This document shows positions 1,526 through 42,600 of a stretch of DNA of 64,000 nt, in pieces. Below the pieces are notes generated by a model. The model ran no database searches and had not been told where the DNA came from. It saw only the letters and a list, made by a program, of their open reading frames with translations. This DNA is from Rubrobacter xylanophilus (GTDB lineage Bacteria > Actinomycetota > Rubrobacteria > Rubrobacterales > Rubrobacteraceae), in assembly GCF_007164525.1 (NCBI RefSeq), contig NZ_AP019791.1, positions 1,909,501 through 1,973,500 on the forward strand, given 5' to 3'. Position numbers and translations under genes: made by a program. The stretch's first letter is position 1. Each line of letters starts with the position of its first letter.

Positions 1526-1577
1526 TCGTAGCGCATCCTCCTTCCACCGAGCGGGGATGCGCCGGCGAAGCCATCGA

Positions 1578-1662
1578 GCATCTCCCTGCGCCGGCATTAC
1601 CCGGATCAGGTTCAACGGGTCGGCACCAACACGGCGCCCTCTCAGCCTCGCGGCTCCCCGGT
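1578..1662 (-). promoter_or_regulatory. TPP riboswitch (THI element)
   Basis: On the minus strand the leader of thiT contains the two conserved THI-box cores: GGGGAGCC...GGCTGAGAGGG and, after a short hairpin, ACCCGTTGAACCTGATCC continuing into GGGTAATGCCGGCGCAGGGA. Order and spacing fit the pyrimidine- and pyrophosphate-sensing arms. No clear terminator hairpin separates it from the thiT ribosome site, so control of translation initiation is likely. Expected effect is repression of thiT-thiD-thiM by thiamine pyrophosphate. Confidence 0.96.
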
Positions 1663-1686
1663 CTACTCTTCCCTTGCCCCCAGAGC

Positions 1687-31483: not shown

Positions 31484-32011
31484 ATGATGCCGGAGATAGG
31501 GCCGGTGCTCGTACCGGCCGAGGAAATCCAGCGGAAAGTACGGGAGCTCGGGGCGCGGATCACCCAAGACTACGCCGGCGAGAACCTGCTCCTGGTCGGT
31601 ATCCTGCGCGGTGCCTTCGTGGTCCTGAGCGACCTGATCCGGCAGATAGAGATCCCCTGCGAAGTAGACTTCATGGAGGTCAGCTCCTACGGGGCCGGAA
31701 CCACCTCCAGCGGCGTGGTGCGCATCCTCAAAGACCTCGAGGAGGACATAAGCGGCCGCCACGTGCTCATCGTGGAGGACATCATCGACACCGGACTCAC
31801 CCTCTCCTACCTCAGGCGCTCGCTGCTGGCCAGAAAGCCCGCCTCGCTGGAGATCTGCGCCCTCCTCTCCAAACCCGCCCGCCGCCAGGTGGATATCCGG
31901 GTCCGCTACCAGGGCTTCGAAGTCCCCGACGTCTTCGTCGTCGGCTACGGTATAGACTACGCCGGTTTCTACCGTAACCTCCGCGATATCTACGCCCTCA
32001 AAAACCCTTGA
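31484..32011 (+). CDS. hpt: Hypoxanthine phosphoribosyltransferase
   Basis: Type I phosphoribosyltransferase of 175 residues converting hypoxanthine (and often guanine) to IMP/GMP. The PRPP-binding motif is VLIVEDIIDTGLTL (about 97-110); LVGILRGAFVVLSDL and EVDFMEVSSYG are also typical. ATG with GAGGGAAAAG ribosome site; the gap upstream contains TAAAAT that may serve as a -10. It stands at the branch between salvage and degradation. Its stop codon is embedded in the -35 of the xanthine dehydrogenase promoter. Confidence 0.93.
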   Translation: MMPEIGPVLVPAEEIQRKVRELGARITQDYAGENLLLVGILRGAFVVLSDLIRQIEIPCEVDFMEVSSYGAGTTSSGVVRILKDLEEDISGRHVLIVEDIIDTGLTLSYLRRSLLARKPASLEICALLSKPARRQVDIRVRYQGFEVPDVFVVGYGIDYAGFYRNLRDIYALKNP

Positions 32012-32037
32012 CACCCTCCGGAAAATCCACCTATAAT
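32008..32037 (+). promoter_or_regulatory. Consensus promoter of the purine-catabolic operon
   Basis: -35 TTGACA (32008-32013) and -10 TATAAT (32032-32037), both perfect consensus hexamers, 18-base spacer. The -35 overlaps the hpt stop codon. Predicted start is near 32044, giving a leader of about 115 bases before the first gene. Such a strong promoter implies that control is exerted by a repressor or by the leader RNA. Confidence 0.8.
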
Positions 32038-32119
32038 CCGCCGATCAGAATAAGGAATCCGCCTTGCGGAAAAAGGGAGAGAGGAGAAGGCGCGCCCGAC
32101 GGGCGATCACCTGGCCGCA

Positions 32120-32156
32120 TCTCCCCGCTGTAGCGGCAGTTTCGCGAAAGGGGAGA
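32120..32156 (+). promoter_or_regulatory. Leader RNA hairpin that would hide the xanthine dehydrogenase ribosome site
   Basis: TCTCCCC (32120-32126) is complementary to GGGGAGA (32150-32156), the Shine-Dalgarno sequence of the following TTG start at 32160. Competing local stems are CCGC-TGTA-GCGG (32124-32135) and, upstream, CGCCC-GAC-GGGCG and TCCGC-CTT-GCGGA (32058-32070). The mutually exclusive folds look like a translational switch; no known riboswitch consensus was recognised. Confidence 0.45.
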
Positions 32157-32159
32157 ATC

Positions 32160-33029
32160 TTGGAGTTTATGCAGCCCCTTGATTGGGAGGAGGCGCTGGA
32201 GATCAAGGCGGCCCATCCGGAGGCCCGCCCGATCTTCGGCGGCACGGACGTGATGGTGGAGCTGAACTTCGGCCGTGAGAGGCCGGAGGTGCTGATGGAT
32301 CTCACCCGGGTACCCGAGCTGCGCGAGTGGGGCGAGGAGGACGGGCGGCTCAGGGTCGGCGCCGGGGTCACCTACACCAGGATCATCGAGGAGCTGAAGG
32401 AGCGGCTGCCGGGGCTGGCGATGGCCTCCCGGACGGTGGGCTCGCCCCAGATCCGCAACCGGGGCACCGTGGGCGGGAACCTGGGCACGGCCTCTCCGGC
32501 GGGGGATGCGCTGCCGCCGCTCTACGTCTCGGGGGCGGAGGTCGAGGTGGCCTCCGTCCGGGGGGTAAGGCGCATCCCGGTCGAGGAGTTCGTGAGAGGT
32601 CCCAAGCGCAACGCCCTGCGGGAGGACGAGCTCATCCTCTCCTTCCTGCTGCCCGGGGCGCGAGGGCCGCAGCAGTACGCCAAGATCGGACCGCGCAACG
32701 CCATGGTGATAGCCGTGTGCTCGCTGGGGCTCGCGCTGGACCCGGAGCGGAGGGAGTTGGGGGTCTGCATCGGCTCCGCCGGTCCCACCCCCTTCCGGGC
32801 CCGGGAGGCCGAGGGGTTCATCCGGGGCGTGCTGGAGGAGGGCGGCCTCTGGGAGAGCCGGAGTGAGATCGGGGAGTCCGCCCTGGCGAGGTTCGGGGAG
32901 CTTGTGGCCGGGGCGGCCAGGCCCATAAGCGACGTGCGCGGCACGGCCGAATACCGGCGGCACGCGGTGGCCGTGCTCGCCCGGCGGGTGCTCCGGTGGG
33001 CCTGGGAAGAGTACCGGGAGGGGAGGTAG
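32160..33029 (+). CDS. Xanthine dehydrogenase FAD-binding subunit
   Basis: Medium subunit of a molybdenum hydroxylase, 289 residues, with the PCMH-type FAD domain: ARPIFGGTDVMVELNFGRERP, VGAGVTYTRI, and SPQIRNRGTVGGNLGTASPAGDALPPL. The C-terminal CO-dehydrogenase-flavoprotein domain completes it. The TTG start is chosen because of the GGGGAGA ribosome site five bases upstream and alignment with the family's short N-terminus; an upstream TTG at 32064 would give a basic, unlikely extension. First gene of the long operon; purines are oxidised to urate by the three-subunit enzyme. Confidence 0.92.
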   Translation: MEFMQPLDWEEALEIKAAHPEARPIFGGTDVMVELNFGRERPEVLMDLTRVPELREWGEEDGRLRVGAGVTYTRIIEELKERLPGLAMASRTVGSPQIRNRGTVGGNLGTASPAGDALPPLYVSGAEVEVASVRGVRRIPVEEFVRGPKRNALREDELILSFLLPGARGPQQYAKIGPRNAMVIAVCSLGLALDPERRELGVCIGSAGPTPFRAREAEGFIRGVLEEGGLWESRSEIGESALARFGELVAGAARPISDVRGTAEYRRHAVAVLARRVLRWAWEEYREGR

Positions 33030-33032
33030 GCG

Positions 33033-33494
33033 GTGCGGCTCAGCTGTGAGGTCAACGGGGAGCGCTACCAGATAGACGGGGTGTGGGAGGGCGAGAGCCT
33101 TCTGTACGTGCTGCGCGAGCGCCTGGGTCTCTACGGATCCAAGAACGCCTGCGAGCAGGGCGAGTGCGGCTCCTGCTCGGTGTACCTGGACGGGGTGCTG
33201 GTGTGCTCGTGCCTGGTGCTCGCCGGGCAGGCCGAGGGCCGGCGGATCGTGACGGTAGAGGGGATCTCCGGCGGCGAGGGCCTGCACCCCGTGCAGGAAG
33301 CCTTCGTGGAGGCCGGGGCGGTGCAGTGCGGCTTCTGCACTCCCGGGCTCATCGTCGCCACCCACGACCTCCTCTTCCGCAACCCACATCCCACGGACGC
33401 CGAGATCCGGGAGGCGCTCGCGGGCAACCTGTGTCGGTGCACCGGCTACGAGAAGATCCTGGACGCCGTCCGGCTCGCTGCGGAGAGGGCATGA
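33033..33494 (+). CDS. Xanthine dehydrogenase [2Fe-2S] subunit
   Basis: Small subunit of 153 residues with two [2Fe-2S] clusters. The plant-type ferredoxin cluster uses Cys40, Cys45, Cys48 and Cys60 (ACEQGECGSC); the helical-domain cluster uses Cys99, Cys102, Cys134 and Cys136 (QCGFCTPG, LCRCTGYE). It relays electrons from molybdopterin to FAD. GTG start; its stop overlaps the next start (ATGA). Confidence 0.95.
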   Translation: MRLSCEVNGERYQIDGVWEGESLLYVLRERLGLYGSKNACEQGECGSCSVYLDGVLVCSCLVLAGQAEGRRIVTVEGISGGEGLHPVQEAFVEAGAVQCGFCTPGLIVATHDLLFRNPHPTDAEIREALAGNLCRCTGYEKILDAVRLAAERA

Positions 33495-34867
33495 GCAAAA
33501 GGCTCCTCATCGAGGGCTGCGCCATAGCCACCGTCGACGCCGCGGGCACCGAGCACGTCTCCGGCTACGTAGCGGTGGAGGGCGACAGAATCTCCGCCGT
33601 CGGGGCGGGGGCACCCCCCGCAGAGCTGCGCGAGGGGGCCCGGATCGTCGACGGGAGCGGGTGTCTCGCGACGCCGGGGCTCGTCAACTGCCACCACCAC
33701 CTCTACCAGTGGGCCACCCGGGGCATGGCCCAGCAGTCGGACCTCTTCGGGTGGCTCGTGGAGCTCTACCCCGTGTGGGCCGGCATCGACGAGGAGATCG
33801 TGCGCGCCGCCTCCCTGGCCGGGCTCGCCGCGCTGGCGCTCTCCGGGTGCTCGACCTCAACGGACCACCACTACGTCTTTCCCAGAGGGGCCGGGGACCT
33901 GCTCGCCGCCGGCATCGAGGCGGCCCGCGAGGTGGGGGTGCGCTTCCACCCCACCCGCGGCTCCATGGATTTGGGGAGGTCGCGGGGTGGTCTGCCGCCC
34001 GATGAGGTGGTCGAGGACCGGGACGAGATCCTCGCCGCCAGCGAGGAGGCCATAGACCGCTACCACGACCCCTCGCCGGGAGCCATGCTCCGGATCGCCC
34101 TCGCCCCCTGCTCCCCCTTCTCCGTCAGCCGGGAGCTCATGGCCGAGAGCGCGGAGCTCGCCCGCAGAAAGGGCGTCCGGCTCCACACCCATCTCGCCGA
34201 GACCCTCGACGAGGAGGAGTACTGCCGGGAGCGCTACGGCGTGAGGCCCGTGGAGTACCTGGAGGAGCTCGGCTGGATCGGCGACGACGTCTGGCTCGCC
34301 CACTGCATCCACCTCAGCGGCGACGAAGTGGAGCGCTTCGGCCAGACCGGGACCGGGGTGGCCCACTGCCCCTCCTCCAACGGGAGGCTCGGGGCCGGGA
34401 TAGCACCGGTGGCCGCGCTCGTCGGCGCCGGGGCGCCCGTCGGGCTCGGCGTGGACGGGGCGGCCTCCAACGAGGCCGGAGAGCTCGCCGGGGAGATGCG
34501 CCAGGCGCTGCTCCTCGCCCGCCTCGCCGGGGGACCGGAGGCCCTCACCGCCCGGCAGGCGCTCGAGATGGCCACGATGGGCGGGGCCCGCTGCCTGGGG
34601 CGGGAGGACGAGATCGGCTCGCTCGAGCCCGGCAAGCTCGCCGACCTCGCCCTCTGGCGGCTCGACGACCTGTGGCACGCCGGGATGGAGGACCCGGTGG
34701 CGGCGCTCGTGCTCGGGCCGGCCCCCAGGGTGGAGCTTTTGCTGGTGGGCGGCGAGCCGGTCGTAGAGGAAGGTGGGCTCCGGACCGTGGACGAAGAAGA
34801 GATGGCACGGGACATAGCGGAGGCGAGCCGCAGGCTCGCCCGGAGGTCAGGGGAGGTGGTCGGATGA
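33491..34867 (+). CDS. Amidohydrolase, 8-oxoguanine/guanine deaminase-like
   Basis: Metal-dependent TIM-barrel deaminase of 458 residues. Metal ligands and substrate residues appear in GLVNCHHHLYQWATRGMAQ, HTHLAETLDEEEYC, LAHCIHLS and GVDGAASNEAGEL, which resemble bacterial 8-oxoguanine deaminases of the AtzB/TrzN branch. The probable reaction is deamination of 8-oxoguanine to urate, or of guanine to xanthine. It is inserted between the Fe-S and molybdopterin subunit genes of xanthine dehydrogenase with ATGA overlaps on both sides, so coexpression is assured. Confidence 0.85.
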   Translation: MSKRLLIEGCAIATVDAAGTEHVSGYVAVEGDRISAVGAGAPPAELREGARIVDGSGCLATPGLVNCHHHLYQWATRGMAQQSDLFGWLVELYPVWAGIDEEIVRAASLAGLAALALSGCSTSTDHHYVFPRGAGDLLAAGIEAAREVGVRFHPTRGSMDLGRSRGGLPPDEVVEDRDEILAASEEAIDRYHDPSPGAMLRIALAPCSPFSVSRELMAESAELARRKGVRLHTHLAETLDEEEYCRERYGVRPVEYLEELGWIGDDVWLAHCIHLSGDEVERFGQTGTGVAHCPSSNGRLGAGIAPVAALVGAGAPVGLGVDGAASNEAGELAGEMRQALLLARLAGGPEALTARQALEMATMGGARCLGREDEIGSLEPGKLADLALWRLDDLWHAGMEDPVAALVLGPAPRVELLLVGGEPVVEEGGLRTVDEEEMARDIAEASRRLARRSGEVVG

Positions 34868-37218
34868 GCGGTATCGAGACCGTACCCAAGGCGCCGCCGC
34901 GCGGCATGCCCGGCCCGGCGGAATCCCGGCCGGGGGACATCGGGGAGAGCACCCGGCGGGCCGACGGTGTCCCCAAGGTCCGGGGGGAGTTCGGGTACTC
35001 CTCCGATCTGTGGATGGAGGACATGCTGTGGGGGGCCACCCTCAGGAGCCCCCACCCGCACGCCAACATCCGATCCATAGACACCTCCGAGGCCGAGGCC
35101 ATGCCCGGGGTGCACGCGGTGCTCACCCACGAGGACGTCCCCGGACGCAAGGTCTACGGCATGGAGGTGCCAGACCAGCCCGTGCTCGCCTGGGAGAAAG
35201 TCCGCTACCAGGGCGAGCCGGTCGCGTTGGTGGCGGCCGACCACCCGGAGACGGCCCAGCGGGCGCTCCAGAAGATAAAGGTCGAGTACGAGGTGCTCGA
35301 ACCGCTCACCGACGCCGAGGAGGCGATGAAGGAGAGCGCGCCCAGGCTCCACCTCTCCGGCAACATCCTGCGCCACGTCCACATCCGGCACGGCGAGCCC
35401 GAGAGCGCGGAGGCCGAGGTCGTGGTCACCGGCGAGTACGAGGTCGGCATGCAGGACCAGGCCTTCCTCGGCCCCGAGTCCGGCCTCGCAGTCCCCGACG
35501 GACAGGGCGGGGTGGATCTGTACATCTCCACCCAGTGGCTGCACATAGACCGCGACCAGGTCGCCGAGTCGCTGGGGCTGCCGCCCGAGCGGGTGCGGCT
35601 CGTGCTCTCCGGCGTCGGGGGGGCCTTCGGCGGGCGGGAGGATCTCAGCATGCAGATCCACGCCTGCATGCTCGCCCTGGAGACCGGACGCCCGGTGAAA
35701 ATGGTCTATAACCGGGAGGAGTCCTTCTTCGGGCACGTCCACCGGCACCCGTGCAGGATGCGCTACGAGCACGGGGCGAGGAAAGACGGCACCCTCGTTT
35801 ACGTGAAGGCCCGCATCGTCCTGGACGGTGGGGCCTACGCCTCCAGTTCCAACGCCGTGTGCCTCAACGCCGCGACCTTCGCCTGCGGCCCCTACAAGGT
35901 GCCCAACGCCGAGGTCGACTCCTACGTGCTCTACACCAACAACCCGCCGTGCGGCGCGATGCGGGGTTTCGGGGCGGTACAGGTCTGCTTCGCTTACGAG
36001 GCGCAGATGGACAGGCTCGCCAAAGAGCTCGGCATGGACCCGGTCGACCTCAGGATAAAGAACGCCATCGAACCCGGGGACCGCTTCCCGTTCGGGCAGG
36101 AGGTTCCCTATCCTGCGCCGGTCGCAGAGATCCTGCGGCGGGTCAAGGAGATGCCGCTCCCGGAGGAGAAGGAGGTCGCAGGGAGGGATCTGCGCGAGCT
36201 TCCGGGAGGTGTCTCCAACGTCACCCACGGCGAGGGCGTCGTGCGGGGGGTCGGCTACGCCGTGGGCTTCAAGAACGTCGGCTACTCGGCCGGCTTCGAC
36301 GATTACTCGACGGCCCGGGTGATCCTCTCCGTGGAGGAGGGAGAGCCGGTGGCGCAGGTGCACACCGCCGCCTGCGAGGTCGGGCAGGGGGTCATCACCG
36401 TGCAGGCCCAGATCGCACGCAGAGAGCTCGGGGTGGAGCGGGTGCGGGTGCTCCCGGCGGACACCCGGGTGGGCTCGGCGGGCTCCTCCTCCGCCTCCCG
36501 CCAGACCTACATGACGGGCGGCGCGGTCCGGCTGGCCTGCCAGGCGGTGCGCGAGCGGGTCCTGGAGCGGGCCCGCGAGGCCCTCGGGGAGGAGCGGGAG
36601 GACCTCTCCATCCGGGGCGGCAACGTCGTAGACGCGGCGGGCAGGGTGGTGGTGCCGCTCGCCGAGCTCATCGGCGAGGAGGGCATCGAGGAGACCGTCG
36701 AGTTCCACCACCGGCCGACGGAGCCGCTGGACGAGAACGGCCAGGGCGACGCCCACGTCCAGTTCGCCTACGCCGCCCACCGGGCGGTCGTCGAAGTGGA
36801 CACCGAGCTGGGGCTCGTGCGGGTGGTGGAGATCGCCACGGCGCAGGACGTGGGAAAGGCCATGAACCCGCAGGCGCTGGAGGGCCAGATCGAGGGCGGC
36901 ATAGCCCAGGGTCTCGGGCTCGCGCTCATGGAGGAGATTCAGGTCAAAGAAGGCAGGGTACAGAACGCCTCCTTCACGGACTACCTGATCCCTACCATCC
37001 TGGATATGCCCTCGGTGAGGGCAGAGATCCTGGAGCTCGCCGACCCGGAGGCCCCCTACGGCCTTAAAGGTGTGGGCGAGCCCCCCACGATAGCCTCCAC
37101 CCCGGCCATCGTCGCAGCCCTGCGGAACGCCACCGGCCGGGAGCTCGCCCGGGTGCCGGTGCGGCCGGAGCAGATCGTCGGTCTCTCCGAGAGCCCGGCC
37201 GTCCCGGAGAGGGGCTAG
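34864..37218 (+). CDS. Xanthine dehydrogenase molybdopterin-binding subunit
   Basis: Large catalytic subunit of 784 residues. Motifs: HPHANIRSIDTSEA near 65, VGGAFGGRED (molybdopterin/Gln region) near 253, PPCGAMRGFGAVQ near 365, EVGQGVITVQAQIA near 505 and the base-catalyst Glu in KGVGEPPTIAS near 735. Related enzymes oxidise aldehydes or nicotinate, but the operon with uricase makes hypoxanthine/xanthine the clear choice. ATG overlaps the deaminase stop. No XdhC-type cofactor-insertion chaperone lies in the window. Confidence 0.93.
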   Translation: MSGIETVPKAPPRGMPGPAESRPGDIGESTRRADGVPKVRGEFGYSSDLWMEDMLWGATLRSPHPHANIRSIDTSEAEAMPGVHAVLTHEDVPGRKVYGMEVPDQPVLAWEKVRYQGEPVALVAADHPETAQRALQKIKVEYEVLEPLTDAEEAMKESAPRLHLSGNILRHVHIRHGEPESAEAEVVVTGEYEVGMQDQAFLGPESGLAVPDGQGGVDLYISTQWLHIDRDQVAESLGLPPERVRLVLSGVGGAFGGREDLSMQIHACMLALETGRPVKMVYNREESFFGHVHRHPCRMRYEHGARKDGTLVYVKARIVLDGGAYASSSNAVCLNAATFACGPYKVPNAEVDSYVLYTNNPPCGAMRGFGAVQVCFAYEAQMDRLAKELGMDPVDLRIKNAIEPGDRFPFGQEVPYPAPVAEILRRVKEMPLPEEKEVAGRDLRELPGGVSNVTHGEGVVRGVGYAVGFKNVGYSAGFDDYSTARVILSVEEGEPVAQVHTAACEVGQGVITVQAQIARRELGVERVRVLPADTRVGSAGSSSASRQTYMTGGAVRLACQAVRERVLERAREALGEEREDLSIRGGNVVDAAGRVVVPLAELIGEEGIEETVEFHHRPTEPLDENGQGDAHVQFAYAAHRAVVEVDTELGLVRVVEIATAQDVGKAMNPQALEGQIEGGIAQGLGLALMEEIQVKEGRVQNASFTDYLIPTILDMPSVRAEILELADPEAPYGLKGVGEPPTIASTPAIVAALRNATGRELARVPVRPEQIVGLSESPAVPERG

Positions 37219-37219
37219 G

Positions 37220-37522
37220 TTGCCCGGCTACGAGCGGGCCGAGCTCACCGCGGAGCTGCGCGTACTCCCCGCAACGGAGGCGCCACAAAAGCAGCTGGAC
37301 GCGGCCCGCCGGGCCGCCGCGGAGGCCGGGCTGGCCAGCGAGGGAGGCCCGGAAACCGTGATGCTCGCCGGCTCCCGGGAGGAGGTACTGGAAGGGGTGC
37401 GCCGGGTCGTCGAGGCGGCGCTCGACGCCGGAGCGAGGGTGGTCGAAGTGCGCGTCGAGGCCCAGCCCGACGCCCCGCGCTTCGGTGAGGAACGAACAGG
37501 GAGGGAGGAGAGAGATGGCTGA
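37220..37522 (+). CDS. Small protein resembling the thiamine-binding (MTH1187/DUF77) fold
   Basis: 100 residues. ELTAELRVLPATEAPQKQLDAARRAAAEAGL and VMLAGSREEVLEGVRRVVEAALDAGARVVEVRVEAQPD follow the strand-helix pattern and the EVL...G...V.V spacing of MTH1187-type proteins, which bind thiamine-like ligands. Similarity is judged by eye and is moderate. TTG start one base after the molybdopterin subunit stop, and its end overlaps the permease ribosome site, so it is firmly inside the operon. Role unknown; a ligand sensor or enzyme-assembly helper is possible. Confidence 0.65.
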   Translation: MPGYERAELTAELRVLPATEAPQKQLDAARRAAAEAGLASEGGPETVMLAGSREEVLEGVRRVVEAALDAGARVVEVRVEAQPDAPRFGEERTGREERDG

Positions 37523-38882
37523 ACGCCCGGAGAGGGTGCACCCGGTAGACCAGCTGCTGCCGCCGGGGAAGATGGTGGCCTACGGTCTGCAGCACGTGCT
37601 CGCCATGTACGCCGGGATAGTCGCCGTCCCGCTCATACTGGCAACCGCCATAGGTCTGCCGCAGGAGCAGGTCGTGTACATCATAAACGCCAGCTTCTTC
37701 ATGTGCGGGGTCGCAACCCTGCTGCAGGCGGTGGGCGTGTGGAAGTTCGGTGCCCGGCTGCCCATCGTGCAGGGGACCACCTTCGCCTCGGTCACCCCCA
37801 TGATCCTCATCGGCGAGGCCCACGGTCTCCCGGGCATCTACGGTTCCATCATCGTGGCCGGGCTGCTGACCGTACTCGCCGCCCCCTACTTCTCCAAGCT
37901 GCTCCGGCTCTTTCCGCCGGTGGTGGCAGGTTCGGTGATCACCGTCATCGGGATCTCGCTGATGCCCGTGGCCATAAACTGGGCCGCCGGGGGCGCCGGG
38001 AGCGAGGGTTTCGGCAGCCCGGGCAACATCGGGATGGCCTTCGCGGTGCTCCTCGTCATCCTGGCGATCACCCGTATCTTCCGGGGCTTCGTGGGCAGGA
38101 TAGCCATCCTTCTCGGGCTGGTCATCGGAACGGCGGCCGCTGCCGCGGTGGGGATGGCAGACTTCGGGGCGGTCGGCGAGGCCTCCTGGGTCGGGGCCAA
38201 CCTCCCCCTCCGCTTCGGGCCGCCCGAGTTCCACCTCATCCCGATCATCTCCATGACCCTGGTGATGCTCATCGTCATGGTCGAGACCACCGCCGACATA
38301 CTCGCCATCGGCGAGATCACGGAGAAGCGGATCCGCCCGGAGGACGTGGCGCGGGGGTTGCGGGCCGACGGGCTCTCCACCGCGGTCGCGGGCTTCTTCA
38401 ACGCCTTCCCCTTCACCGCCTTCGCCCAGAACGTCGGTCTCGTCCGGTTCTCCGGGGTGAAGAGCCGCTTCGTGGTCGCCACCGGCGGCGCCATCCTGCT
38501 GCTCATGGGCTTCTTTCCCAAGCTCGCAGCGGTCGTGGCCTCCATCCCGCTGCCGGTCCTCGGCGGAGCGGGGCTGGTGCTCTTCGGCACCGTAGCGGCG
38601 GCGGGGATACAGACCCTCTCCCGGGTCGACCTCACCGACAACCGCAACCTGATCATCGTAGCCGTCAGCGTGGCCTTCGGCATCATCCCGGCCGCCGTCC
38701 CGGACTTCTACGACGGCTTCCCGGAGGCGGTGCGCATGATCTTCGAGAGCGGGATCACAGCGGCGAGCGTGGCCGCCATCGCGCTCAACCTGGGCTTCAA
38801 CATCCTGGGACGCCGGGAACCGGAACCGACCCACACCGCAGAGACCGCATCCCACGCCCCGGAGCCGGAGGAGGTAGGCTAG
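37515..38882 (+). CDS. NCS2-family xanthine/urate permease
   Basis: Inner-membrane protein of 455 residues with about 14 segments of the nucleobase-ascorbate transporter fold. Signatures: YGLQHVLAMYAGIVAVPLILA, ARLPIVQGTTFASVTPMI (QGTTFA), VETTADILAIGEI and FFNAFPFTAFAQNVGLVRFSGVKSR. PucJ/PucK and UacT-like members import urate or xanthine with H+ or Na+. ATG 37515 has GGGAGGAGAG upstream and overlaps the end of the preceding small gene by eight bases. Confidence 0.92.
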   Translation: MAERPERVHPVDQLLPPGKMVAYGLQHVLAMYAGIVAVPLILATAIGLPQEQVVYIINASFFMCGVATLLQAVGVWKFGARLPIVQGTTFASVTPMILIGEAHGLPGIYGSIIVAGLLTVLAAPYFSKLLRLFPPVVAGSVITVIGISLMPVAINWAAGGAGSEGFGSPGNIGMAFAVLLVILAITRIFRGFVGRIAILLGLVIGTAAAAAVGMADFGAVGEASWVGANLPLRFGPPEFHLIPIISMTLVMLIVMVETTADILAIGEITEKRIRPEDVARGLRADGLSTAVAGFFNAFPFTAFAQNVGLVRFSGVKSRFVVATGGAILLLMGFFPKLAAVVASIPLPVLGGAGLVLFGTVAAAGIQTLSRVDLTDNRNLIIVAVSVAFGIIPAAVPDFYDGFPEAVRMIFESGITAASVAAIALNLGFNILGRREPEPTHTAETASHAPEPEEVG

Positions 38883-38883
38883 G

Positions 38884-39417
38884 TTGGCCCGCCTCACCCC
38901 GGAGGAGGTGGATGCGCTCTCCAGGGAGGAGTTCGTCCGGGTCTTCGGCGGGGTGTACGAGAACTCGCCGTGGGCGGCGGAGGCGGCGTGGGAGGAGCGC
39001 CCCTTCGGAGGGCTCGAGGCTCTGGAGCGGGCGCTGGAGCGCGCGGTGCGCCGGGCACCCGAGGAGCGCCGGCTCGAGCTCATCAAGGCCCACCCGGACC
39101 TCGCGGGCAGGGCCGCGGTGGCCGGGGAGATCACGCGCGAGTCCGCCCGCGAGCAGTCCTCGGCCGGCCTCGATCGTCTCACCCCGGAGGAGCACGCCCG
39201 CTTCACCCGGATGAACCGCGAGTACCGGGAGCGCTTCGGCATCCCCTTCATAGTCTGCGTGAGGGAGCACACCAAGGAGTCGATCCTCGCCACCGGCGAG
39301 CGGCGGCTCTCCAGCACCCGCGAGCGGGAGCTGGAGACGGCGCTGGACGAGATCTGCAAGATAGCCCGCCACCGGCTGCGGGAGATCGTGGCTCCCCCGG
39401 AAGGAGAGGGAGCGTAG
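38884..39417 (+). CDS. OHCU decarboxylase
   Basis: 2-oxo-4-hydroxy-4-carboxy-5-ureidoimidazoline decarboxylase of 177 residues, giving (S)-allantoin in the third step of urate breakdown. Conserved features are FVRVFGGVYENSPWAAEAAW, catalytic His in LIKAHPDLAGRAA (about 64-76), EQSSAGLDRLTPEE and GIPFIVCVREHTKESIL. TTG start one base after the permease stop (TAG-G-TTG), the same arrangement as at 37220. Here it is a stand-alone gene rather than fused to uricase as in B. subtilis PucL. Confidence 0.94.
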   Translation: MARLTPEEVDALSREEFVRVFGGVYENSPWAAEAAWEERPFGGLEALERALERAVRRAPEERRLELIKAHPDLAGRAAVAGEITRESAREQSSAGLDRLTPEEHARFTRMNREYRERFGIPFIVCVREHTKESILATGERRLSSTRERELETALDEICKIARHRLREIVAPPEGEGA

Positions 39418-39422
39418 GAAGA

Positions 39423-40007
39423 ATGGAGTTTCCCCACATAACATTGAGGCTGCCCGGCTGGGTGGAGGAGCTCGTCCGGAGCCGGGACCGCGTCTACCCC
39501 TCCGTGGAGGACAGGATGCGTCTCGCGGTGGAGCTCTCGCGGCTCAACGTGGAGCACGGGACCGGAGGGCCCTTCGGGGCCGCCATCTTCGAAGAGGAGA
39601 GCGGGAGGCTGCTGGCCCCCGGTGTCAACCTCGTGGTCCCCTCGAGCTGCTCCGTCGCCCACGCCGAGGTGGTCGCCATAATGGTCGCCCAGAAAACCGT
39701 GGGGCACTTCGACCTCGGCGGCCCGGGGATGCCCCGCTACCAGCTCTTCGCCAGCACCGAACCGTGCGCCATGTGCTTCGGGGCCACGACCTGGTCGGGC
39801 GTCAGGAGCCTGGTCTGCGGCGCCCGCGACGAGGATGCACGGGCGGTGGGCTTCGACGAGGGAGCCAAGGTGGAGCGTTGGATCTCCGCCCTCGAAGAAC
39901 GCGGCATCTCCGTCCGCCGCGATGTGCTGCGCGAGGAGGCCGCCGCCGTGCTCCGTCGCTACGCCGAGGGGGAGAACGTGATCTACAACGCCCGGCAGGG
40001 AAGCTAG
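39423..40007 (+). CDS. Guanine deaminase, cytidine-deaminase fold
   Basis: Zinc deaminase of 194 residues. Zn site: HAEV (SVAHAEVVAIMVAQ, about 80) and PCAMC (STEPCAMCFGATTWSGV, about 110). The GTGGPFGAAIFEEESGRLLA start and length match the guanine deaminase GuaD of bacilli more than tRNA or cytidine deaminases. It would convert guanine to xanthine, so the operon has two possible purine deaminases of different folds. ATG follows the decarboxylase with five bases between. Confidence 0.85.
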   Translation: MEFPHITLRLPGWVEELVRSRDRVYPSVEDRMRLAVELSRLNVEHGTGGPFGAAIFEEESGRLLAPGVNLVVPSSCSVAHAEVVAIMVAQKTVGHFDLGGPGMPRYQLFASTEPCAMCFGATTWSGVRSLVCGARDEDARAVGFDEGAKVERWISALEERGISVRRDVLREEAAAVLRRYAEGENVIYNARQGS

Positions 40008-40019
40008 GGAAGAGAGGCA

Positions 40020-40901
40020 GTGATGACCGACACCGCGAGACGGACGCCCGGCAAGATCGTGCTCGGCCACACCAACTACGGCAAGTCCGACATCCGGCTG
40101 GTCAAGGTGTTCCGCAACCAGGAGCGGCACGAGATCAAGGAGCTCCGCGTGGACGTCTCCCAGGAAGGGGACTTCACCGCCGCCCACGTGGAGGGGGACA
40201 ACACCGACCTCATGGCCACCGACACCATGCGCAACACGGTCTATGCGCTCGCCAGGGACCACCTCACCACGAGCGCCGAAGCCTTCGGGATCGAGCTCGT
40301 GCGCCACTTCCTCGAGGCCGCCCCCCGGGCGAACCGCGTCAGCGTGAGGATGATCGAGTACCCCTGGGAGCGCATAGAGGCGGCCGGCAGGCCGCACGAG
40401 CACTCCTTCGTCCGCGGCGCCGGAGAGCGTATGGCCGAGGTGACGGGCGACGAAGCGGGCAATTTCGGCGTCGAGGCCGGAATAGACGACCTGCTCGTGC
40501 TCAAGACCACCAACTCCGGCTGGGCCGGCTTTCTGCGCGACCGGTTCACCACGCTGCCGGAGACGGACGACAGGATCCTCTCGACCGTCGTGACCTCCCG
40601 CTGGTCCTACGGCGGCGCCACGGACCTGGACTTCGACGGCCTGTGGGAGGGGATCCGCCGGCGCATCCTGGAGAGCTTCACCGACCACTACAGCCCCTCC
40701 GTCCAGTTCACCCTTCACCACATGGGCAAGGCGGTGCTGGAGAGCTTCCCGGAGGTGGAGTGGATCCACTTCTCGCTCCCCAACCGCCACCACCTGCTCT
40801 ACGATCTCGAGCGCTTCGGTATCGAGAACGAGGGCGTCGTCTTCCACGCCGACGCCGAGCCCTACGGCCTGATCGAGGGCACCGTGGAGAGGTCCTCTTG
40901 A
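40020..40901 (+). CDS. Urate oxidase (uricase)
   Basis: Cofactor-free T-fold oxidase of 293 residues converting urate, O2 and water to 5-hydroxyisourate. Catalytic Lys (GHTNYGKSDIRLVKV, about 22) and Thr (DNTDLMATDTMRNT, about 67) are present, as are FLRDRFTTLPE and VQFTLHHMGKAVL. Starts GTG ATG; either may be used. The gene end overlaps the HIU hydrolase start by four bases, keeping the unstable product beside the next enzyme. Confidence 0.96.
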   Translation: MMTDTARRTPGKIVLGHTNYGKSDIRLVKVFRNQERHEIKELRVDVSQEGDFTAAHVEGDNTDLMATDTMRNTVYALARDHLTTSAEAFGIELVRHFLEAAPRANRVSVRMIEYPWERIEAAGRPHEHSFVRGAGERMAEVTGDEAGNFGVEAGIDDLLVLKTTNSGWAGFLRDRFTTLPETDDRILSTVVTSRWSYGGATDLDFDGLWEGIRRRILESFTDHYSPSVQFTLHHMGKAVLESFPEVEWIHFSLPNRHHLLYDLERFGIENEGVVFHADAEPYGLIEGTVERSS

Positions 40902-41233
40902 GCGGCTACCTGACCACCCACGTACTGGATACCGCCCGCGGCCGCCCGGCGCGGGGCCTCAGGGTGGAGCTCTTCCGCCTCGCCGGCGGAGAGCGCGAGC
41001 ACCTCAAGACCCTCACGACCAACGCCGACGGGCGCACCGACGAGCCGCTCCTGGAGCCGGAGCGCTTCGGGCGCGGCACCTACGAGATCGTCTTCCACGT
41101 CGGCGAGTACTTCGGCGGGGCGGGCTTCCTGGGCGAGGTGCCGGTGCGCTTCGCGGTCGGGGAGCCGGAGGAGCACTACCACGTGCCGCTCCTCGTCTCC
41201 CCCTACTCGTACACCACCTACCGGGGGAGCTAG
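40898..41233 (+). CDS. 5-Hydroxyisourate hydrolase (transthyretin-like)
   Basis: Protein of 111 residues, homotetrameric in the family, hydrolysing HIU to OHCU. All diagnostic residues are seen: His in YLTTHVLDTARGRPA, Arg in GLRVELF, and the C-terminal tetrapeptide YRGS. The TTG start lies inside the uricase stop (TTGA). Its own stop shares a base with the allantoinase GTG. Confidence 0.96.
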   Translation: MSGYLTTHVLDTARGRPARGLRVELFRLAGGEREHLKTLTTNADGRTDEPLLEPERFGRGTYEIVFHVGEYFGGAGFLGEVPVRFAVGEPEEHYHVPLLVSPYSYTTYRGS

Positions 41234-42600
41234 TGGCGGCCTTCGACCTCATCGTGCGCGGCGGGACGGTGGTGTGTGGCGATGGCTGCAAGGTGGCGGA
41301 CGTCGGTGTTGCCGACGGCGTCGTCTCCGCCGTAGGCCAGGAGCTCGAGGGCGGCGCCCGCGAGGAGATAGACGCCCGGGGGCTCCACGTCTTCCCCGGC
41401 GCGATCGACGCCCACGTCCACTTCAACGAGCCCGGGCGCACCGGCTGGGAGGGCTTCGCGAGCGGGACTCGCGCGCTCGCCGCCGGGGGGACGACCCTCG
41501 GCGTGGAGATGCCGCTCAACGCCCATCCCCCCACGACCGACGCAGAGAGCTTCCACCTCAAGCTCGCCGCCGCGGAGAGGGCGGCCTTCGTGGACTTCGC
41601 GCTGTGGGGCGGGATCGTGCCGGGGAAGGTCGATCGGATGGAGGAGCTCGCCGAACGCGGGGTCTCAGGGTTCAAGGCGTTCATGTCCGCGACCGGCACC
41701 CCGGACTTCGAGGCCGCAGACGATCTCACCCTCTACGAGGGGATGCGCGAGGCCGCACGGCTCGGACTTCCCGTCCTCGTCCACGCGGAGAACCGCCAGA
41801 TCACCGACGCCCTCTCCCACCGGGCCGCCTCGACTTTGCGCACCACGATGCGCGACTACCTCGACTCCCGACCCGTCATAGCCGAGCTCGAGGCCATAAG
41901 CCGTGCGATCCTCTTCACCTCCGAGGTTGGCTGCTCGCTGCACATCGTCCACGTGAGCACCGGGCGCGGGGTCGCGCTCGTCGCCGAGGCCCGCTCGCGC
42001 GGGATCGACGTCACCTGCGAAACCTGCCCCCACTACCTCCTCCTCACCGACGAGGACGCCGAGAGGATCGGGGCCGCCGCCAAGTGCGCCCCGCCGCTGC
42101 GCCCGCGCGAGGAGCTGGAGTCCCTCTGGGAGGCGGTGCTCTCGGGCGACGTCTCGTTCGTCACCTCCGACCACTCGCCCTGCCCGCCGGAGATGAAGGC
42201 CGGGGAGGACATGTTCCGGGTGTGGGGTGGGATCTCCGGCTGCCAGTCGCTGCTCGCGGCGCTCCTCACCGAGGGGCATCACCGGCGGGGACTCCCCCTC
42301 GAGAGGGTCGCGGGACTGCTCTCCGGAGCGGTGGCCCGGCGCTTCGGGTTCGCGGGGAAGGGCGGGATCGGGGAGGGGAACGACGCCGACCTCGTGCTCG
42401 TGGACCTCGGGGAGAGCTTCGAACTGCGAGAGGAAGACCTCCAGTACCGGCACCCGATCAGCCCGTACGTCGGGATGCGCTTCCGGGGGCGGGTGGTGAG
42501 GACCCTCGTGCGCGGGAGGACCGTCTTTGTGGACGGGAAGGTCGCCCCGGAGCCCGCGGGGAGGTTCGTGAGACCACGAAGAGAGAAAGGAGAGAGATGA
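41233..42600 (+). CDS. Allantoinase
   Basis: Dinuclear-metal cyclic amidohydrolase of 455 residues opening allantoin to allantoate. Ligands: DAHVHFNEPGRTGWEG (about 58-73), metal-bridging Lys in GFKAFMSATG (about 148), HAENRQ (about 182), HIVHVSTGRG (about 238) and Asp in TSDHSPCPPEMK (about 310). NEPGRTxWEG and the HSPCPPE loop favour allantoinase over dihydroorotase or hydantoinase. GTG start overlapping the previous stop by one base. Confidence 0.94.
   Translation: MAAFDLIVRGGTVVCGDGCKVADVGVADGVVSAVGQELEGGAREEIDARGLHVFPGAIDAHVHFNEPGRTGWEGFASGTRALAAGGTTLGVEMPLNAHPPTTDAESFHLKLAAAERAAFVDFALWGGIVPGKVDRMEELAERGVSGFKAFMSATGTPDFEAADDLTLYEGMREAARLGLPVLVHAENRQITDALSHRAASTLRTTMRDYLDSRPVIAELEAISRAILFTSEVGCSLHIVHVSTGRGVALVAEARSRGIDVTCETCPHYLLLTDEDAERIGAAAKCAPPLRPREELESLWEAVLSGDVSFVTSDHSPCPPEMKAGEDMFRVWGGISGCQSLLAALLTEGHHRRGLPLERVAGLLSGAVARRFGFAGKGGIGEGNDADLVLVDLGESFELREEDLQYRHPISPYVGMRFRGRVVRTLVRGRTVFVDGKVAPEPAGRFVRPRREKGER

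Follow-up and report, generated by a model that had tools for sequence, protein, structure and literature searches.

A conserved, often tandem leader element ahead of purine-catabolic genes in Rubrobacteraceae: a candidate translational riboswitch

Rubrobacter xylanophilus carries a purine-catabolic operon on the forward strand of the 64,000-nucleotide stretch analysed here (the window), and the locus raises the question of how this operon is controlled. Its first gene (32160..33029; PF00941, PF03450) encodes the FAD-binding subunit of xanthine dehydrogenase (XDH). The genes that follow encode the XDH 2Fe-2S subunit (33033..33494; PF01799, PF00111), 8-oxoguanine deaminase (33491..34867; NF006055, 688 bits, cutoff 532), the XDH Mo-binding subunit PucD (34858..37218; TIGR03196, 902 bits, cutoff 784), a 100-aa open reading frame with no Pfam or NCBIfam match (37220..37519), a xanthine permease of the NCS2/PbuX type (37485..38882; TIGR03173, 546 bits, cutoff 414), the OHCU decarboxylase UraD (38884..39417; TIGR03164), a cytidine/guanine deaminase-family protein (39417..40007; PF00383), urate oxidase (40020..40901; TIGR03383, 349 bits, cutoff 168) and allantoinase (41233..42600; TIGR03178, 556 bits, cutoff 358).

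The promoter, read from the sequence, consists of TTGACA (32008..32013) and TATAAT (32032..32037) separated by an 18-base spacer, and its -35 box overlaps the stop codon of an upstream hypoxanthine phosphoribosyltransferase (HPRT) gene (31484..32011, forward strand; TIGR01203, 216.6 bits, cutoff 150). TTGAC[AG] recurs upstream of nearly all relatives of the leader element described below, and the -10 box in most of them resembles TATAAT, TACAAT or TATACT. At two of these loci (L003 and L008), the sequence upstream of the promoter suggests the same HPRT-promoter arrangement. The first-pass annotation of this DNA had located the promoter correctly and had given the leader about 115 bases, close to the 116 nt predicted here (32044-32159). 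It had also argued from the perfection of the promoter that control must act elsewhere, which is no argument in itself. We placed the start codon at TTG 32160, because related proteins begin M/V-E-F-L/M-Q-P at this point and an ATG occupies the same place in the sister species; GGGGAG (32150..32155), whose position is conserved, is therefore the Shine-Dalgarno sequence (SD).

The first-pass annotation proposed that TCTCCCC (32120-32126) hides the SD by pairing with GGGGAGA (32150-32156), and the two are indeed exactly complementary. Taken alone, this anti-SD pairing is ordinary for a GC-rich genome and is weak evidence: an anti-SD as good as that of the window was obtained in 33 of 2000 shuffles, and of 308 control starts taken from the same GC-rich genomes, 42% had an upstream partner equally strong or stronger (-14.4 kcal/mol or below). 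Anti-SD strength by itself, being common among control starts, was dropped as evidence, as was global fold stability, since the whole leader folded no more stably than its shuffles (z = -0.22).

Comparison of the leaders of orthologous operons across the family revealed a conserved, aptamer-like block at 32075..32125 on the forward strand, which the earlier reading had missed. Covariance models R1 and R2 were then built from it, and the window copy matched with 61.9 bits (E = 1.2e-15). Among 45 pairs of leaders (ten leaders preceding the orthologous gene), a 25-base core was 94.5% identical, whereas in the same comparison the downstream orthologous gene was 45% identical at fourfold-degenerate sites and 72.6% identical as protein. 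Searches with R1 and R2 covered 39 Rubrobacteraceae genomes and found the element in 14 of them, as 21 copies distributed over 16 loci. With R2, each of these copies scored at least 47 bits, and the next match scored 28 bits. Two copies stand in tandem at 5 of the 16 loci. The element is always in the sense orientation, and in most single-copy leaders it follows the conserved promoter at about +31 to +35. The orthologous FAD-subunit gene lacks the element in eight genomes. The element was not seen in a sample of about 357 other Actinomycetota genomes searched with stricter filters, nor before the XDH homologues of Dactylosporangium, Micromonospora, Streptomyces and others. In a plasmid collection the sole match was a Rubrobacter radiotolerans plasmid, and a phage collection gave no match.

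Several weaker matches were set aside. Pattern matches in 11 viral contigs were rejected, being mostly one recurring sequence that lacks the flanking core. Covariance-model matches below 30 bits were discarded as well; one of them (L102) falls within a coding region and the others were treated as chance, and a locus with 20 bits (L059) was not accepted as a copy. A diverged copy on contig 244 of genome G030 (L103, 1484-1533; 52 bits with R2) has shifts in the conserved core and precedes a second XDH FAD gene; its sequence would fit either decay of the copy or a variant specificity.

The element is compact, with the consensus GGGAGA..GG-ARA-AGGCG-CG[variable hairpin]CG-AUCA-CCU-R-GCC..UCUCCC. 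RNAalifold predicts an unbranched hairpin made up of P1, P2a (GG/CC), P2b (AGG/CCU) and P3, in which the P1 stem encloses internal loops with about 21 invariant bases and the hairpin ends in a variable P3. In the window, all on the forward strand, the 5' strand of P1 is GGGAGA (32075..32080), which pairs with 32120-32125 and whose pairing potential is kept in relatives. The 5' half of the core, recognised by its invariance and by RNAalifold, is GGAGAAGGCGCG (32083..32094) and supplies the GG of P2a and the AGG of P2b; GG and AAGGCGCG were invariant in the first 13 sequences. P3 is CGCCC-GAC-GGGCG (32093..32105) and differs between species in sequence and in length (9 to 46 nt). The 3' half of the core, again recognised by invariance, is CGATCACCTGGCC (32104..32116), of which CGATCACCT and GCC were invariant in the first 13 sequences. 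P3 folded in the examples tested, and because its length varies irrespective of reading frame, the element is not coding. The pairs of P1 and P3 hold, with a few compensatory changes, and arm-swapping shuffles often reached the observed pairing (p = 0.19 and 0.24), so that covariation in these stems is at most suggestive and was dropped as proof; its weakness follows from a core that hardly varies. P1 pairs were counted by hand, as the R1-fitted alignment sets the window-type P1 one base out of register.

Two further hairpins flank the element. P0 (UCCGC-CUU-GCGGA, 32058..32070) lies at the 5' end of the leader, and most leaders have it immediately ahead of the element; its loop and flanks change between leaders, and its fold beats that of shuffles (Fisher 4e-6, an optimistic value as the sequences are related). 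Equivalents of P0 (UCCG...CGGA) were seen at L008, L099, L100 and L106, often with a second, outer stem of variable sequence, and P0 is single in each leader even where the aptamer is doubled. It may serve as an mRNA 5' stabiliser or as part of the switch. P4 (32127..32149), between the anti-SD and the SD, is a weak hairpin in the window; a sequence-diverse hairpin occupies this region in 13 of 14 leaders, and its fold also beats shuffles (Fisher 1.3e-7, likewise optimistic for related sequences).

The stem that had been proposed to free the SD, CCGC-TGTA-GCGG (32125-32136), is present in the window, yet reads CCAT-TGTA-GCGG in the sister species and is missing from other leaders. The conserved competitor is P1 itself. 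Its 3' strand, TCTCCC(C) (32120..32126), complements the SD better than any other 8-mer of the leader in 11 of 14 cases, and the spacing from anti-SD to SD is 18-24 nt in most leaders. Because this strand doubles as the anti-SD, P1 and hiding of the SD exclude each other in nearly all leaders in terms of pairing potential. Thus, when the stems of the first-pass model were followed across relatives, the anti-SD/P1 strand proved conserved and the CCGC-GCGG stem did not. That annotation was right in its general idea of a translational riboswitch or protein-binding leader with mutually exclusive pairings, to which the aptamer-like element, the purine-only regulon and the exclusivity of P1 and SD hiding conform; its stem model was wrong.

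We propose that the segment 32075-32125 is an aptamer, a rod-like hairpin closed by P1 in which P2a, P2b and the variable P3 are arranged around conserved internal loops. A bound ligand would keep P1 (GGGAGA/TCTCCC) closed and leave the SD GGGGAG free, and the XDH operon would be translated. Without ligand, the SD would take the 3' strand of P1 (TCTCCCC), with P4 looped out between them, and translation would be off; where two copies stand in tandem, the anti-SD would come from the one closer to the gene. The direction is suggested by the catabolic nature of the operon, for which closure of P1 by a substrate or intermediate is the natural reading. We infer ligand binding, the kind of ligand and this ON direction; the ligand would be a metabolite of purine breakdown, with xanthine and urate the likeliest. 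In ligand-free folding, about half the leaders (L107, L017, L100, L021, L018 and L101) favoured the state with the SD hidden, L008 and L019 were near balance, and P1 was favoured in the window leader, L003, L011 and L106. In the window leader, P1 reached -54.0 kcal/mol against -48.9 kcal/mol for the anti-SD stem, so that its OFF state would need kinetics or another partner.

Purine-catabolic genes follow the element at all 16 of the 16 loci, and the regulon is purine catabolism only. The element precedes the XDH FAD subunit, the XDH large subunit (L100), or an NCS2 permease followed by XDH (L101); in Rubrobacter radiotolerans it lies on plasmid 1, before a nucleoside deaminase gene followed by a permease-UraD fusion. 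This deaminase/permease locus disfavours a Mo-cofactor ligand. At L099, L100 and L101, the SD beside the element opens only a short reading frame (31, 53 and 8 codons, respectively) before the purine gene, which suggests relocated leaders or a leader-peptide or translational-coupling step. The short frame at L101, VEIIEPFC, resembles the VEFLQP start of the XDH FAD subunit.

The element is very likely a conserved cis-regulatory RNA. With the conserved element, its gene contexts, the tandem copies, the shared P1/anti-SD strand and the absence from Rfam computed here, we put the probability at roughly 70% that it is a translational ON riboswitch that acts in cis and belongs to a class that Rfam does not hold. 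Points that speak against it are the weak covariation in P1 and P3, the preference of the window leader for P1 even in ligand-free folding, the frequency of anti-SD partners in these genomes, the eight genomes whose orthologous gene has no such element, and the short frames opened by the SD at three loci. We also lean, a little less firmly, towards a new class with a distinct and often tandem aptamer for an oxidised purine (xanthine, urate or another), which would turn purine catabolism on.

It is unlikely, though worth weighing, that the same RNA element is instead the site of an RNA-binding regulatory protein (a PyrR-like phosphoribosyltransferase or another) that answers to purines by stabilising P1 or masking the SD. 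PyrR, a regulator that binds RNA, belongs to the phosphoribosyltransferase family; the window has an HPRT gene just before the leader, with the promoter overlapping its stop codon; and conserved unpaired bases in internal loops would suit protein binding also. However, the upstream protein is a clear HPRT by its TIGR01203 score, with 26 bits to PyrR, and in the other contexts inspected the neighbour on the upstream side is not HPRT (plasmid trfA at L099, other proteins at L100 and L101). The size of the element, its dense invariant core, its tandem copies and its catabolic regulon are typical of riboswitches. PyrR-type attenuation as such resembles the window locus in that a phosphoribosyltransferase gene adjoins the leader, but differs in that this neighbour is not PyrR, that pyr genes are absent and the operon is a purine operon, and that the anatomy is translational rather than that of a terminator.

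A DNA operator for a transcription factor, placed just downstream of the promoter, would account for the fixed position relative to the conserved promoter and for the two conserved blocks, and tandem operators could explain the tandem copies. This explanation is improbable: the distance between the blocks varies from 9 to 46 bases with a hairpin possible between them, the element lacks symmetry and keeps the sense orientation throughout, its 3' edge also serves as the anti-SD, and the flanking hairpins keep folding despite sequence change. That the leader is an ordinary structured one that senses nothing, with the anti-SD a by-product of high G+C, would agree with the fold z-score and the frequent anti-SD partners at control starts, but this already disfavoured reading leaves unexplained why the core is 94.5% identical when fourfold sites reach 45%, as well as the purine-only contexts and the tandem copies, and is very improbable.

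The riboswitch reading was compared with known RNA systems. No Rfam 15 covariance model matched the leader or ten related loci at its gathering score, which agrees with the first-pass remark that no known class was recognised; elsewhere in the window, a TPP riboswitch was identified (1566-1670, reverse strand; RF00059, 66.5 bits). The closest analogue in function is the NMT1 motif, a xanthine riboswitch that acts as an OFF switch and is reported only in Proteobacteria (Yu & Breaker 2020, PMC7373994; Xu et al. 2021, PMC8266621). NMT1 shares with the Rubrobacter element a rod-like hairpin with conserved internal loops, a purine-oxidation regulon and an SD-sequestering expression platform. However, cmscan gave no match to NMT1 (leader at E<=5; one aptamer at E<=10), and the published aptamer, GGAGUAGAAGCGUUCAGCGG...CCCGGAAAUUGCUCC, differs from the conserved sequence of the Rubrobacter element, which is confined to Rubrobacteraceae in our comparison and would be an ON switch. 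The Moco RNA motif could in principle serve a molybdo-enzyme operon; it gave no Rfam match, and the genes that follow the Rubrobacter element include deaminase and permease genes independent of the Mo cofactor. The aptamer of purine riboswitches and their variants is a three-way junction, whereas the Rubrobacter element, predicted to be an unbranched hairpin, matched no purine riboswitch of Rfam. Variants of the guanine riboswitch with specificity for xanthine, guanine or 2'-deoxyguanosine (PMC9295807) would resemble it in sensing purines. In the literature, we found no paper on a Rubrobacter or XDH riboswitch of this kind.

Purine-sensing RNAs serve as a model of the way in which RNA tells close chemical relatives apart. 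An ON-type sensor of oxidised purines, if the reading is true, would be a useful biosensor part, and an aptamer of about 50 nt together with a culturable host, Rubrobacter radiotolerans, makes direct binding tests feasible. The proposed riboswitch would then be a second, independent RNA solution for the same pathway, without sequence kinship to NMT1, the OFF switch of Proteobacteria. As a compact aptamer prone to tandem copies, present in a deep-branching family of actinobacteria and linked solely to the degradation of purines, it would also solve that recognition problem independently.
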